42,113 nt of DNA from a virus: the IMG/VR virus record IMGVR_UViG_3300045051_000099, positions 1-42,113 of that record, one strand, 5' to 3'. Shown piece after piece: positions 6,164 to 12,663 of the stretch. The translations under genes were made by a program, and so were the position numbers. How positions within the stretch are numbered: position 1 is the stretch's first letter; every line of letters begins with the position of its first letter. The notes beneath the pieces are model-generated. The model saw only the letters and a list, made by a program, of their open reading frames with translations, made no database searches and was not told where the DNA came from.

Positions 6164-7384
6164 TTACGCGCCTAGTTCGGCAATGTTTGATAGCTTAGCG
6201 TGTGCGTTACGACGGTAGGTACCTAGTTCTGAGTACTGGTACAAAGTCGCACGGTAGGCGTCAGTGTCGCCAACGCGCTGCCACATAGCACCGTCACGGT
6301 CCATCCATGACCAGTCCTTCTTGCGGTTGATCACAAGCTGGTTTGAAGATAGAGCGTATAGAGTGCCCTTTGGAGCTGCGTAGTCAGATACGAACTTGAT
6401 TGGCTTGCCAAGAGCTTCGAAGCTGAATGAACGCTGACCACCGGTTAGACCTGCACCGTTTACGAACTGGCGTAGACCCTGTAGCAAGTTCCAGTAAGCG
6501 TTGTAAACGCCCGGAGCTGCTAGGAATACGTCAACTTCGCCACCCTGCTTGTCAACCTTCTGAACAAGGCTGATCAAGTCAAGCTCGGTTAGAGTACCCG
6601 GGGTACCTACTGAACCTAGAGTCTTGATGGTTGAGTTCCATACTGGAACAGTTGCGCCATCAATACCGTGTAGTGAGTTGCCTGAACCTACGATTGCACC
6701 TAGACCAGTTAGCTCCTTGTTGAATGAGTTAACACCTGACACACCGCGAACGATGATGTCACCTGCAACTGCTGCAACTGAAGCTGAGAAGGTCACAGCG
6801 CCTGTGTCTTCGTTTACAGATACAACGGTGACGGTTGCCTTAACGGTTGGAGTACCGTCAGTTAGGTCAGATCCGTCTAGTAGAGCAACAGCCATTTCTG
6901 GCTCAACCCACTGTGCGTTGTCCATAACGATGGTGGTGCTAGTAGCAGTTGTCTTAACAGCTGCTAGCTTTCCGGTTCCATCGCCGTAGATCTGGCGGTT
7001 TAGGTCACGTGCAACGTCGCGCTTTAGACCTGAAACTTCAGCGTCTACTACGTTAACGAATGCGTTTGGGTCACCAGTAGCCTGCTCGAAAAGCTGACCG
7101 TCTACCTCGATTGAACCGTATAGGTTCTTTAGGTAAAGAGAAGCCTGCTTGTACTTCTGAGCGCCTGCTACAGGTAGAGTTTCACGAACTCCACGAGCAC
7201 CGATACCTTGGTTGCGTCCGATGTGAGTGTCGAAACGAACTTCTTTACCGTTGTTGGTGATGTTCTGAGCTGTTGACTGGAAGAACTCCAGTGCTGGGTT
7301 TTTGTCCTTCAGCTGCTCGTGAATGTCGCCGTAGACGAGCTTCAGAGCCTCTGAGGCGAAAGTCAAAATTCCTTGACCTGCCAT
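6164..7384 (-). CDS. Major capsid protein (HK97-type fold)
   Basis: A 406-residue protein with the N-terminus MAGQGILTFASEALKLVYGD. It has an early N-arm/E-loop-like region (NGKEVRFDTHIGRNQGIGAR) and an inserted β-rich segment around residues 150-220 (TATSTTIVMDNAQWVEPEMA...VTVVSVNEDTGAVTF). The C-terminal half contains the segment QRSFSFEALGKPIKFVSDYA, followed by strands typical of P- and A-domains. The length and its position directly downstream of the scaffold identify it as the coat protein. AGGAGAG lies a few bases before ATG. It is flanked by its own candidate promoter and a strong terminator, as expected for the most abundant virion protein. Confidence 0.9.
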   Translation of the reverse strand: MAGQGILTFASEALKLVYGDIHEQLKDKNPALEFFQSTAQNITNNGKEVRFDTHIGRNQGIGARGVRETLPVAGAQKYKQASLYLKNLYGSIEVDGQLFEQATGDPNAFVNVVDAEVSGLKRDVARDLNRQIYGDGTGKLAAVKTTATSTTIVMDNAQWVEPEMAVALLDGSDLTDGTPTVKATVTVVSVNEDTGAVTFSASVAAVAGDIIVRGVSGVNSFNKELTGLGAIVGSGNSLHGIDGATVPVWNSTIKTLGSVGTPGTLTELDLISLVQKVDKQGGEVDVFLAAPGVYNAYWNLLQGLRQFVNGAGLTGGQRSFSFEALGKPIKFVSDYAAPKGTLYALSSNQLVINRKKDWSWMDRDGAMWQRVGDTDAYRATLYQYSELGTYRRNAHAKLSNIAELGA

Positions 7385-7470
7385 GATTTCACTCTCCTAA
7401 GAGTAAACAGAATTAACGATTGATTGCCGTTGCCCTGACCACTCTTAGGTGGCTGTACTTAGACACTTGT

Positions 7471-7498
7471 ACATTATCACAATTAGACATTTCTGTCT
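7471..7498 (-). promoter_or_regulatory. Possible capsid-gene promoter with adjacent inverted repeat
   Basis: The 127-base gap between scaffold and coat genes holds, on the minus strand, TGTGATAAT, an extended -10-like element, at 7480-7472. Just upstream of it is an imperfect palindrome, AGACA-N4-TGTCT (7485-7498). No clear TTGACA box is present. The gap carries no gene and ends in the strong coat ribosome-binding site, so a dedicated coat promoter is plausible but unproven. Confidence 0.3.
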
Positions 7499-8369: not shown

Positions 8370-10541
8370 TTACTGTAGTTGTTCAGCGGTCATGCCAGTT
8401 TGATCCGGCATAGCCTCTGCTCCCGGCAATGCTGCCTGAGTCTGTTCTGCAACCTGTGCCTGCATAGCCTGCTCCATCATCTTCTGTTGCAAAGCTGATT
8501 CGTGCATCGAGATGTGCTTCTGGAACTCTGCCTTGATCTCGTCAGGCATCATTTCAAACGCCTGTGACTTGCGGAAACGGTTGTGAATTTCGATGTGTAC
8601 CGCGTGGTTGTCGTAGCCGTGAACTGGGATAACAGCAGGAACAGCCAAAGGAATAGGCTGTCCGTTTGCGTCCACGCTTCCCGGAACGATCTTGTCTGCA
8701 TCTCCGCGAGCAGCACCGGCTTCCCATTCTTCTTGGTAAGCGGTGATCTGATCTGCGGTTAGCTTCTTCATCATCAAGTTTTCGCGCTGAGCTTGGTTCT
8801 CGTCGATCTTCAAGGTGTTGTAGAACTGCTTTAGCATTCCCATGTCTAGGATGCGTAGACCGTCCTGCGGTGAGATAAAGCCAAGCTTCATCCACTCTGT
8901 GATTAGAGCCTGACGTGCAGACTTAGAAGTAGGTAGAGCCGAACCTGACTCAACACGAATGTCTGTGCCGGATGCGATGTCGGCACCAGATAGCACGGTT
9001 GCGTCGAATGATCCGTCAAGGCCAACAGTCTTGATTAGACGTGGCTGATCAACGTACTGAACAAACAGGCTAAGTGACTGGCGAGCAATCTTCTCGATAC
9101 CGGCTTCGATTGAGTTAAAGACGGTGCTTAGGTAAGCATCGTCGCGTTCCTGCAAGTAGCTGATAGCGGTAGCAGCTGTCACGCCACCTGACTCGCCACG
9201 TGAAACTTGGTGCTGGCCTGAAATGTCTTCAAGGTCAGACTGAATGCGGTCAATTTCCTGTAGAACATAGTTAGGAAGTGGCTGCATTGGAACCGGCTGG
9301 GGCATCGCAAAGCCCGGGCGAACCGGGATCCAGATACCCGGACGAGCGGTAATCTTGTTTGGGTTTACAGCGCCCTCGACGTACATCATCTGAGGCTTAG
9401 CCATTAGGTTCTTAGCTTCGATGATCTGTGAGCGAGTGCGGTTTAGTTCGCGCTGTAGTGGGATCAAGTTCTTGATTACTGAACGACGGTAGAAACGACC
9501 GGTCGAAATGCCATAGAAGTGAGCGAAAGGGTATTCCTTGTGTGCGTAAGGAATGCCGTTTTCTGCCATCTGTACAATTTCGTTATCTACGATGGTGATA
9601 AGGCCACCCTTTGGTAGATAAGGGCAACCGTTTGGCTTAGCCCACATCTCGATAACTAGAACAGCGTCTGGGAATGCTTCGTTTGAACCCTTGGCATCCA
9701 TCAAAGCAGCGTTCATAATTTCAGTGCTTGAGATCTTTGAAGGCTTGAAGTCTTTAGGTAGCACTGAGCCGAAGTTGCTTCGGACCCATTGCTCGCTCTT
9801 TGTGTAGACGTTGAAAATGTATGGCTGGTTCTCGATGTCCTCTTCAGCCAAGTCTGGCACGAATAGGTGGAATGGAGAAACAACTTCAAAGTTTACGTCG
9901 CCACGAGCTGTTTCTTGCTGGATTACACGCTTCTGGCCGGTGAACTCGTCAACGACTGGGGTAGGGGTAATCTGCTTGATTGACGGATCCCATAGGCTTT
10001 TGATAAATGCGTTTCCGCAGGTAGCACGCCAGAATTCAGCAGGCTGAAGTTTGCGAGTTTGGAATGAGTGCTTGTCGTACAGCGACTGCCAAACTTGTTC
10101 GGCAGCTGATGCAGCCATCAAATCGTCTTCATCGTTAGATGCAGGCATAACTTGAGCTGATGGGTTTCCTGAAGTAGTCTTTGCAACTTCGGTACGGATG
10201 ATCGGCTCGATCTTATTGATGATTACACGAGGCTTGCCCTGTGGGTTGCGCTCTTCTTGTAGAACTTGGCTCTGGCCTACAGTTTTCCAGTCGTGGTACT
10301 GGTAGCCGTTGTAGAAAGCAAGCTGTAGATACCAGTCTTGCTCTTCTAACTTACGAGCTGACTTGGCTTTTTCGTACTCTGACTTAACCCACGCAACTAG
10401 CTTCTTGGCTTCGTCCTTTTTCTTGAACTTGTTGATAAGGGTTTCATCAGCCATCTCCCCTTCCATAGGGGTGCCTGATAGGTAAGAGTTAGTCTTACCG
10501 TCAAAATACTGTTCGCCAGCCATAAACCTATTCCGAATCAC
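8370..10541 (-). CDS. Portal protein (P22-like)
   Basis: A 723-residue portal protein, a length typical of the large P22-type family. It has an N-terminal wing (NPQGKPRVIINKIEPIIRTE, a signature region for these portals), a central clip/stem region with FYRRSVIKNLIPLQRELNRT followed by LMAKPQMMYVEGAVNPNKIT, and ISGQHQVSRGESGGVTAATA near residue 450. The C-terminal 150 residues are helical and Met/Gln-rich, consistent with a barrel extension. The frame can start at GTG 10541 (GGAGCG upstream) or ATG 10523. I keep the former. The gene overlaps the stop of the membrane-protein gene upstream. It forms the dodecameric vertex through which TerL pumps DNA. Confidence 0.88.
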   Translation of the reverse strand: MIRNRFMAGEQYFDGKTNSYLSGTPMEGEMADETLINKFKKKDEAKKLVAWVKSEYEKAKSARKLEEQDWYLQLAFYNGYQYHDWKTVGQSQVLQEERNPQGKPRVIINKIEPIIRTEVAKTTSGNPSAQVMPASNDEDDLMAASAAEQVWQSLYDKHSFQTRKLQPAEFWRATCGNAFIKSLWDPSIKQITPTPVVDEFTGQKRVIQQETARGDVNFEVVSPFHLFVPDLAEEDIENQPYIFNVYTKSEQWVRSNFGSVLPKDFKPSKISSTEIMNAALMDAKGSNEAFPDAVLVIEMWAKPNGCPYLPKGGLITIVDNEIVQMAENGIPYAHKEYPFAHFYGISTGRFYRRSVIKNLIPLQRELNRTRSQIIEAKNLMAKPQMMYVEGAVNPNKITARPGIWIPVRPGFAMPQPVPMQPLPNYVLQEIDRIQSDLEDISGQHQVSRGESGGVTAATAISYLQERDDAYLSTVFNSIEAGIEKIARQSLSLFVQYVDQPRLIKTVGLDGSFDATVLSGADIASGTDIRVESGSALPTSKSARQALITEWMKLGFISPQDGLRILDMGMLKQFYNTLKIDENQAQRENLMMKKLTADQITAYQEEWEAGAARGDADKIVPGSVDANGQPIPLAVPAVIPVHGYDNHAVHIEIHNRFRKSQAFEMMPDEIKAEFQKHISMHESALQQKMMEQAMQAQVAEQTQAALPGAEAMPDQTGMTAEQLQ
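9197..9206. other. Half-match to the parS sequence
   Basis: CACGTGAAAC within the portal gene matches one side and the centre of the full parS site at 10895-10910, but the other arm does not match. It is recorded for completeness and is probably coincidental. Confidence 0.2.
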
Positions 10542-10854
10542 CTAGCGAAGCGCTCCACATGGAACCTTCTAGTTTCTTCTCGTACTCTGCCAACTCCAAT
10601 TCGTCACCAGAGAGTATAGGTCCAGTATAGCCTTCATAGGCAGGTGCTGTCATTGCTGCAACCTGCTGAAATGCCATTGGGTCTTTACTTGCTAGCAGGT
10701 TTGACAGGTGCTTTACGCTTTCCTGCTGCAACTTCGCTAGCTTCGTGTTCTCCGCTGTCTGGTTCTGAATCATCCTGAACAGGTGCAGACTTATCAGCGT
10801 AATCGCTGTAAGAAATAGCGAAGATAAAATCAGTAAGGCTACGACGAATTCCAT
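10528..10854 (-). CDS. Single-pass membrane protein overlapping the zinc-finger gene
   Basis: A 108-residue protein with a hydrophobic segment at residues 2-26 (MEFVVALLILSSLFLTAITL...), then a helical Gln/Lys-rich stretch and an acidic tail. Its first 170 bases overlap the upstream 147-residue gene in another frame. The start is supported by GAGGAG seven bases before ATG 10854. The predicted topology is N-out with a cytoplasmic C-terminus, or the reverse. I do not recognise the family. A membrane protein embedded between terminase and portal genes could be an accessory lysis, superinfection or membrane-docking protein, but nothing in the sequence decides this. Confidence 0.72.
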   Translation of the reverse strand: MEFVVALLILSSLFLTAITLISLHLFRMIQNQTAENTKLAKLQQESVKHLSNLLASKDPMAFQQVAAMTAPAYEGYTGPILSGDELELAEYEKKLEGSMWSASLGDSE

Positions 10855-11128
10855 TGATTAGCTCCTCAGTGTGGTTTGGAATGACTGCAATCTCTGTTTC
10901 ACGTGAAACAATATCAGCCTTGAGTTGGGCGATCTCGGCATCTAGCGGAGCTCGTTCGGCATAGCCGATAAATAGGGCAATTTCCTTGGTGCAAGTCAAG
11001 CAAAGCTGAGCCATGCCACCGGCAACTGGGATCTCTCGACCTAGGTCAAAGAGTTGGTTATTACGTCCACAGGACATACACGAGCTAGGGGCTGGGCCAC
11101 CGTTTTCGTAGTAGTGAAAGTGTCTCAT
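10685..11128 (-). CDS. Zinc-ribbon protein with coiled coil, TerL-portal spacer gene
   Basis: A 147-residue protein. Residues 17-20 (CMSC) and 43-46 (CLTC) form a two-CxxC zinc ribbon enclosing GREIPVAGGMAQL. A helical segment (APLDAEIAQLKADIVSRETE) follows, then an acidic and finally basic tail (AAGKRKAPVKPASK). I recognise the CxxCG...FDLGREI...CLxC pattern as common in actinobacteriophages between terminase and portal genes. The function is unknown. The ATG at 11128 overlaps the terminase stop. The last 170 bases overlap the next gene, and the codons for residues VSRET contain an exact parS palindrome. Confidence 0.8.
   Translation of the reverse strand: MRHFHYYENGGPAPSSCMSCGRNNQLFDLGREIPVAGGMAQLCLTCTKEIALFIGYAERAPLDAEIAQLKADIVSRETEIAVIPNHTEELINGIRRSLTDFIFAISYSDYADKSAPVQDDSEPDSGEHEASEVAAGKRKAPVKPASK
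10895..10910. promoter_or_regulatory. parS: parS-like centromere site (exact consensus)
   Basis: The 16-base palindrome TGTTTCACGTGAAACA is identical to the consensus bacterial chromosomal parS, the site where the CTPase clamp ParB loads. It is the only full copy I found. It lies inside the zinc-ribbon gene, where it encodes I-VSRET. No ParA or ParB is encoded in this genome, so a bound protein would have to come from the host. By chance an exact given 16-mer is expected far less than once in 42 kb, although coding constraint raises that somewhat. Confidence 0.75.
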
Positions 11129-12663
11129 TAGTATCCTTCTAACTGAGCAATCGAGCTAGAACTTCTCCAACTACTACCCCATTCATCTTGATCATCGTAA
11201 TCTCTTGCCGGTGATGTTGACTGGTATCGATCGTTGAAGGTGCTGTGAAATCCGTCTCGATTTGGTTGATAAGGTTCCCCATCTGGGGTTAAGTCGTCCA
11301 TAAAGGTCATGGCGTACTTAAGTGCATCATAGCAGTGGTTATCTTTGTCTCGTATATCTTCTTGCTTATTTTTCTGCTCAGCGATTTTAGGGCTGGCGTA
11401 CTTCTTCCATTTTAGCTTTGGTAGCTCGGCTATTAGGTTAGGGCAATCGTCCGTAATCATCAAGTAAGGCTTGCCAGTTTTAGGGTTCGTCTTTAGGTAT
11501 TGCTGGATCTTTTCAAGCCCAATTCGGCGATCTGTTGGGATATTATCCACCGCGATGTAGATGCCGTGCTTGGCATACTCCTGCAAGATCGAGGTGCCAG
11601 TGTGTTCCTTGGTCTGCTTGATCGCTGGGTCACCTGTAGTTAAGTAAAGCTCAGAGCCGAAATCGTGGGTAATCTCCCGGGTAATCTTGTTGACTACTTC
11701 AGCGTGCTGAGCGACGTTCCATTTTGCTTGGTAGTGCTCGCGGAAGACGACAATAGTTCCGTCTTGGTCAACTGCCATCCACAGCCAAGCGGTGGGGTTG
11801 GTGTATCCGCTATCCATTGTTCGAATAATTCGATGCTTTGTAGTGGGTTTGAATTGCCCTTTAGGAATACAGTGTGTGACAGGTGAGAATTCTGGAAAGA
11901 CTGCACCGCCAAGATGTACGTATTGTCCGTTTCGGCGGATCTCTTGCTCTTCTGGGGTGAGGTTAGCCATCGCTCGAGCAATAGCTTCTCGGCTAAGGGT
12001 AGGGTTGTCATCCATCGTAGCCTCGACAACGCCAATGTCTTTAGTGCCTTCTTTAGCCGGGAGATAAATATCTTCAAGGATCCATTCCATACCTGCAACC
12101 GGAGTCTGGCTCATCCACCAGTCTCCGTTTGTGTCAACGAGACGCATATTACACTCGTTGAAAACGCTTTTCGGGCACTCTTCGTCGTAGTGAATGAAAT
12201 GACGAGATGAACCCGCAAACTTGTCTAGATCCTGATCCTGAGACATGAACTCTACGAACGAGCCATTGTTCAGAGTAAGCACGTGGCGCTCTTTAGAGTA
12301 GGAGTCTTCCCAGCTACCGTTGATCAAAAACTTCTTAGGCATCCATTGCTTGTAAAGCGGGAGGATAATCTTGTCAACACCGTTCAGGAAGTCGACGGCT
12401 ACGACACGGCCTCGAATAGGGCCCTCTGGGGTCTTGCGATACGGATGCGTATGCGTGAGCCACCAGATACTTTCGATCGTTGACCCGAGCGACTTACCTG
12501 AACGGTTGCCTCCAATATACAACCGGTCTTTGTGCGGATCAGAGTGAAACATTTTTTGCTTATCTGACGGCACGTAGTCGTACAGGTTTGGGGTATGAAC
12601 AGACGCCTGAACGCCTTCTCCGAGCTGGAGAAAGATGTCAGTAAGGTCTAGCTCTTTAGCCAC
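11128..12663 (-). CDS. Terminase large subunit (packaging ATPase-nuclease)
   Basis: A 511-residue TerL. The ATPase domain has Walker A GGNRSGKS at residues 51-58 and a Walker B/catalytic pair in FIHYDEEC (residues 156-163). The RNase H-like nuclease domain shows MDSGYTNPTAW with D284, a second acidic position in TTGDPAIKQ (D345) and a third in DNHCYDALKY (D446), which together form the metal site. It docks on the portal and translocates DNA into the prohead. The ATG at 12663 overlaps the end of the small nuclease gene by 8 bases. The probable small subunit is not adjacent but about 20 kb away on the other strand. Confidence 0.95.
   Translation of the reverse strand: MAKELDLTDIFLQLGEGVQASVHTPNLYDYVPSDKQKMFHSDPHKDRLYIGGNRSGKSLGSTIESIWWLTHTHPYRKTPEGPIRGRVVAVDFLNGVDKIILPLYKQWMPKKFLINGSWEDSYSKERHVLTLNNGSFVEFMSQDQDLDKFAGSSRHFIHYDEECPKSVFNECNMRLVDTNGDWWMSQTPVAGMEWILEDIYLPAKEGTKDIGVVEATMDDNPTLSREAIARAMANLTPEEQEIRRNGQYVHLGGAVFPEFSPVTHCIPKGQFKPTTKHRIIRTMDSGYTNPTAWLWMAVDQDGTIVVFREHYQAKWNVAQHAEVVNKITREITHDFGSELYLTTGDPAIKQTKEHTGTSILQEYAKHGIYIAVDNIPTDRRIGLEKIQQYLKTNPKTGKPYLMITDDCPNLIAELPKLKWKKYASPKIAEQKNKQEDIRDKDNHCYDALKYAMTFMDDLTPDGEPYQPNRDGFHSTFNDRYQSTSPARDYDDQDEWGSSWRSSSSIAQLEGY

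Follow-up and report, generated by a model that had tools for sequence, protein, structure and literature searches.

In this work, we have analysed a virus record of 42,113 bases from IMG/VR (IMGVR_UViG_3300045051_000099; the whole stretch is called the window here), in which a small gene for a zinc-ribbon protein lies between the genes for the terminase large subunit (TerL) and the portal protein and carries, read in frame as V-S-R-E-T, the palindromic 16-mer TGTTTCACGTGAAACA (Table 1). The window also encodes a D5-type primase/helicase, an SNF2-like helicase, an exonuclease, an SSB, a RusA-like resolvase, a holin and a peptidase. ParB is a CTP-dependent clamp that loads at parS, spreads over the adjoining DNA and recruits ParA and SMC. 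The initial annotation had recognised an exact chromosomal-type parS at this locus, in a phage that encodes neither ParA nor ParB, and both observations hold: the 16-mer is the sole match in the record when up to three mismatches are allowed, the ParB_N domain (PF02195) has no match in the records of the window and of L122, L123, L124 and L184, and the ParA-type domain AAA_31 (PF13614) has none in the 42,113-base record. Both proteins of a complete phage ParABS system are therefore missing from the window.

Table 1. Features of the window around the parS site and the major head gene
Feature	Coordinates	Strand	Remarks
parS 16-mer	10895..10910	.	predicted host-ParB loading site; exact match; core kept in L123/L124
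Zinc-ribbon protein, 147 aa, two CxxC pairs	10685..11128	-	site at codons 74-78; phrog_37518, unknown function, E=7e-7
108-aa ORF	10528..10854	-	overlaps zinc-ribbon gene; clear of parS
TerL	11128..12663	-	PHROG terminase match
Portal protein, P22-like	8370..10541	-	PHROG/Pfam portal match
Major head protein	6164..7384	-	L184 has parS just upstream of its homologue
Leader of major head gene	7385..7475	-	putative translational control element

The parS of Corynebacterium glutamicum is given as TGTTNCACGTGAAACA, and that of Mycobacterium smegmatis as the 14-mer GTTTCACGTGAAAC (PMC7022226). Measured against the 16-bp inverted repeat TGTTNCACGTGAAACA or its variants, the palindrome of the window equals the parS consensus exactly, and its 14-bp core GTTTCACGTGAAAC, which is retained by two relatives, is the M. 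smegmatis site. The chance of one exact 16-mer in 42 kb is about 1e-5. Its coding context lowers this improbability: given the peptide I-V-S-R-E-T and the codon usage of the phage, the exact 16-mer spelling has a probability of 0.0019 and the core spelling one of 0.027. The spelling had been described as one among more than a thousand, which overstates the rarity of the core, because codon bias favours it. Since the site was singled out from a window, the proper yardstick is the collection-wide count given below.

We built a codon alignment from homologues of the zinc-ribbon gene. In L123 (CGTTTCACGTGAAACT) and L124 (TGTTTCACGTGAAACT), with 58% protein identity, the 14-bp core occupies the same codons as in the window, and the changes to the site are limited to the degenerate outer positions 1 and 16. 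In the rest of the single-coding part of the gene, codons for residues in common with the window are identical in 43% of cases, and the four- or six-fold residues that are codon-identical in the window, L123 and L124 number 4 of 27; four consecutive identical codons have a chance of about 0.002 by this empirical rate, and of 0.027 by codon usage alone. In the TerL tree, L123 and L124 group as sisters, and the in-gene conservation amounts to roughly one independent comparison. Taken by itself, the conserved core is thus moderate evidence for selection at the DNA level. These data leave some room for a coding coincidence, in which V-S-R-E-T happens to be written in common codons and was inherited by three related phages: the core spelling is less improbable than it looks given the peptide, and two of the three carriers are sisters. 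The peptide itself should seldom occur (0.007 VSRET peptides are expected in the window).

The 3΄ part of the zinc-ribbon gene is also read, in another frame and over some 170 bases, as part of the 108-aa ORF, which has a hydrophobic N terminus. Among relatives, the synonymous sites of this overlap hardly change, and both frames are therefore probably real. We considered parS as the cause of the high codon identity at this end of the gene and rejected it, the overlapping ORF being the explanation; the length of the invariant run was likewise discarded as regional evidence, as longer invariant runs occur in TerL. The run at parS stands out only when the comparison is confined to the part of the zinc-ribbon gene that codes in a single frame.

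The other zinc-ribbon homologues have a different peptide at this position (EAHER and similar) and no site. One of the relatives, L184, lacks the in-gene site, but 3.7 kb from this position an exact 16-mer lies between its scaffold-like gene and its major-head gene, where it is free of coding constraint because the DNA there is non-coding. In the alignment, this copy lies within a stretch of about 45 bp that is missing from relatives whose downstream flank is 90–95% identical, and the TerL tree places L184 in another supported clade than the window. From alignment and tree, the exact parS of L184 is a separate gain. Whether the 16-mer is kept when codons change, a check put forward in the initial annotation, is thus answered in favour of a real site: two diverged relatives retain the core, and a third has gained an exact copy at another place. 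Most relatives, several of them of 41–45 kb, have no parS within two mismatches, which indicates that the site is accessory and dispensable, although its absence from an incomplete contig counts for little.

Across IMG/VR, the 16-mer was found in at least 120 stretches, and two control palindromes, with the dinucleotide content unchanged and CACGTG likewise at the centre, in 11 and 5, a more than tenfold excess in viral contigs; the 18-mer subset in which the 16-mer is preceded by CT also occurs in at least 120. In 50,697 records of cultured phages, 286 carry the 16-mer (a number that includes duplicate RefSeq/GenBank entries) and none the matched control. With such an excess over the controls, chance is a far less likely source of this 16-mer on a phage contig than a genuine parS, and on these counts the site of the window is not a chance match. 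The excess and the independent non-coding copy in L184, together with the scarcity of VSRET peptides, also make a coding coincidence very unlikely. Taken together, the core kept in L123 and L124, the gain in L184 and the excess over matched palindromes indicate that parS is under selection at the DNA level. No enterobacterial phage was among the matches listed for the 16-mer. Gokushoviruses and Spiroplasma phage 4 carry it too, and two bajarodino viruses of 5.8–5.9 kb (INPHARED PQ006149.1 and PQ006099.1) have five to six exact copies each.

Perfect palindromes are frequently operators, and the 16-mer could instead be bound by a regulator of the phage, or by another host regulator that shares the parS sequence, or could form an RNA hairpin. 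In IMG/VR, 47% of the sites in a first sample and 27% of those in a second lie outside ORFs of at least 80 aa, against 10% for random places; the matched control palindromes, however, were outside ORFs in 12 of 16, a count which is in keeping with operators and for which we dropped the intergenic bias as evidence for parS. In the window, no promoter-like or terminator-like site was found at the palindrome, which is present as a single copy within a gene. Moreover, the 16-mer is found again in phages that are unrelated but have in common a host with ParB, and the changes that are tolerated agree with known parS variants. An operator or hairpin is accordingly the least probable of the explanations that we weighed, and a parS read by the host is preferred: we consider it highly probable that host ParB would bind the site of the window, and probable, with somewhat less assurance, that the 16-mer is a functional parS at which host ParB would load.

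To see the site in cultured phages, 15 carriers from distinct lineages were taken for whole-record searches for sites and for ParB_N: Bacillus B103; Listeria P100; Microbacterium Quhwah, RobinRose and Kozie; Arthrobacter Nubia, Ranunculus and Mimi; Gordonia Woes; Clavibacter CMP1; Lactobacillus Bacchae; Glutamicibacter Voltaire; Roseobacter DSS3P8; Enterococcus Athos; and Vibrio phi 3. Each has between one and four sites when up to two mismatches are allowed, and ParB_N is absent from 13 of the 15 lineages, the matches being in Quhwah and Ranunculus (sub-threshold). As Quhwah encodes one ParB-like domain, its site might conceivably serve a protein of the phage itself. The Microbacterium phages Quhwah and Tyrumbra have their sites at equivalent positions in a helix-turn-helix gene, Quhwah with D-V-S-R-E-T, written with TGTTTCACGTGAAACA, and Tyrumbra with D-V-P-R-G-T, written with TGTTCCACGTGGAACA. 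The mirror-image substitutions S to P and E to G turn one palindromic parS spelling into another, and as they change the amino acids they point to selection on the DNA rather than on the protein. The GC-richer Pseudomonas-type spelling occurs most often in phages of Pseudomonas (17 of 58 records). It is also found in-gene in the Klebsiella jumbo phages RaK2, K64-1 and Muenster, in several records within a baseplate wedge gene, and so the match between spelling and host is imperfect. To our knowledge, the Enterobacteriaceae have no chromosomal ParABS, and the site in the Klebsiella jumbo phages is probably a coding coincidence. In Vibrio phage phi 3 (KP280063.1), a parS and a one-mismatch parS, at 821 and 2934, lie in the terminal repeat around T5-like A1/A2 genes, a part of the DNA that possibly enters first.

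Among cultured phages, the TerL of the window is nearest to those of Arthrobacter Jasminevirus (45%), Cellulosimicrobium DS1 and Microbacterium Shocker. The TerL proteins of Arthrobacter Brad and Jasmine and of DS1 are 43–46% identical to it over most of their length, and Brad and Jasmine share its gene order, TerL – small gene(s) – portal – scaffold-like – capsid; unlike the window, the three Jasminevirus/DS1 genomes scanned have no parS within two mismatches. Host assignment via GTDB genomes gave no result. From TerL and gene order, the window phage is a Jasminevirus-like podovirus, probably with a host in the Actinomycetota. The initial annotation had suggested that parS might serve the segregation of an episomal prophage, a reading that finds no support in the genes: tyrosine integrase and serine-resolvase domains have no match in the 42,113-base record, and par genes are absent. 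Nor did a survey of 84,980 bacterial and archaeal species, with one genome for each, reveal a relative of the TerL of the window. As far as these domain searches and this survey of host genomes can tell, the phage is lytic, with no sign of a temperate life.

What could a lytic phage gain from a bare parS? We propose that, after DNA entry, host ParB would load at the single phage site and the clamp would slide over several kb of adjoining phage DNA, where it may bring host ParA and SMC. Phage genomes would then be held on the nucleoid and passed to both daughters when the host grows slowly or the infection is stalled. The phage would thereby hitchhike on the centromere machinery of its host, as reported for phi29 and Spo0J. 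The position of the site varies even between relatives, which suggests a handle for the whole molecule rather than a local effect on one promoter. Interference with late transcription of TerL and portal, another of the consequences first envisaged, is unlikely for the same reason, as the position differs both between relatives and between phage lineages. Of the benefits considered, segregation or retention of the phage DNA has the best precedent and is the likeliest, although we rate it as the main one at somewhat below even odds.

Several known systems bear on this proposal. Chromosomal ParABS of Corynebacterium, Mycobacterium and Bacillus uses the same 16-bp parS, and its ParB is the predicted user of the phage site; the window differs in having the cis site only, with no parA or parB, and in not being near a chromosomal origin. 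One parS is enough for chromosome maintenance in C. glutamicum (PMC7083940). Partition sites on actinophage DNA are also known from the parABS phages RedRock and Miko, but these are extrachromosomal temperate phages with their own ParA and ParB, and RedRock recognises repeats of an 8-bp motif and not the chromosomal 16-mer (PMC7157519). The closest precedent is phi29, which, according to the account of Meijer et al. 2005 given in PMC9437464, is carried into spores by host Spo0J/ParB. Like the window, phi29 is lytic and has host-type parS sites on a genome lacking ParB (the domain is absent from its relative B103). It differs in its Bacillus host and spore, in its small protein-primed genome and in having several sites with one mismatch (four copies of TGTTTCACGTGGAACA), while the window phage, an actinophage-like podovirus with a host that need not form spores, has a single exact site. 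The window phage is thus neither unique nor without precedent, and a site for host ParB is the natural reading of a real parS in a phage without its own ParABS.

The same recruitment of ParB could be turned to other ends. The main rival to segregation is a decoy, in which many parS copies on replicating phage genomes would draw ParB, and SMC with it, off the host origins and disturb host segregation or replication control, to the benefit of the phage. Titration and segregation predict the same sequence features. Multi-site carriers (four sites in phi29, three in a Ruegeria phage, and four in Vibrio phi 3 with both terminal repeats counted) and the indifference to position would suit titration; a dedicated decoy, however, would be expected to have arrays, and many carriers, the window included, have a single site in 40–140 kb. 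We regard titration as unlikely. Alternatively, ParB loading might serve mainly to load SMC or to condense phage DNA for replication, packaging or protection from nucleases. ParB at parS does load SMC in C. glutamicum (PMC7083940), and position independence is again consistent with such a role, which predicts the same sequence features as segregation and which we hold to be improbable as the main function.

If host ParB is indeed used by a bare phage parS, host chromosome segregation would be a routine resource or target of phages and not an oddity of phi29. In the largely open-access literature searched, phi29 was the only lytic phage for which we found a bare parS described, and we provisionally take as new both this actinophage lineage as a carrier and the breadth across phages. 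A broader hypothesis is that many lytic phages of hosts that do not form spores rely on a bare host-type parS, a strategy that would have gone largely unrecognised, with sites gained repeatedly and at arbitrary positions, matched in spelling to host ParB, and giving phage DNA access to host segregation or condensation; for Listeria, Microbacterium, Arthrobacter, Gordonia and Lactobacillus phages and the uncultured lineage of the window, the genomic evidence leaves this about evenly poised. The parS would also be a sequence tag for finding more carriers, in-gene sites being sometimes revealed by the peptide V-S-R-E-T, and the idea is directly testable in cultured phages of Microbacterium, Arthrobacter and Gordonia and in phi29-like phages of B. 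subtilis.

Apart from parS, the leader of the major head gene drew our attention. The sequence CCTAAGAG...CTCTTAGGAG is conserved there in the window and six relatives, and the leader has no match in Rfam. Base pairing is possible between its upstream element and the ribosome-binding site of this gene (fold z = -2.6), and a small alternative stem, CC-CCTAAGAG-GG or CCACCTAAGAGTGG, has sides that covary. By these features, the leader looks like a translational control element.
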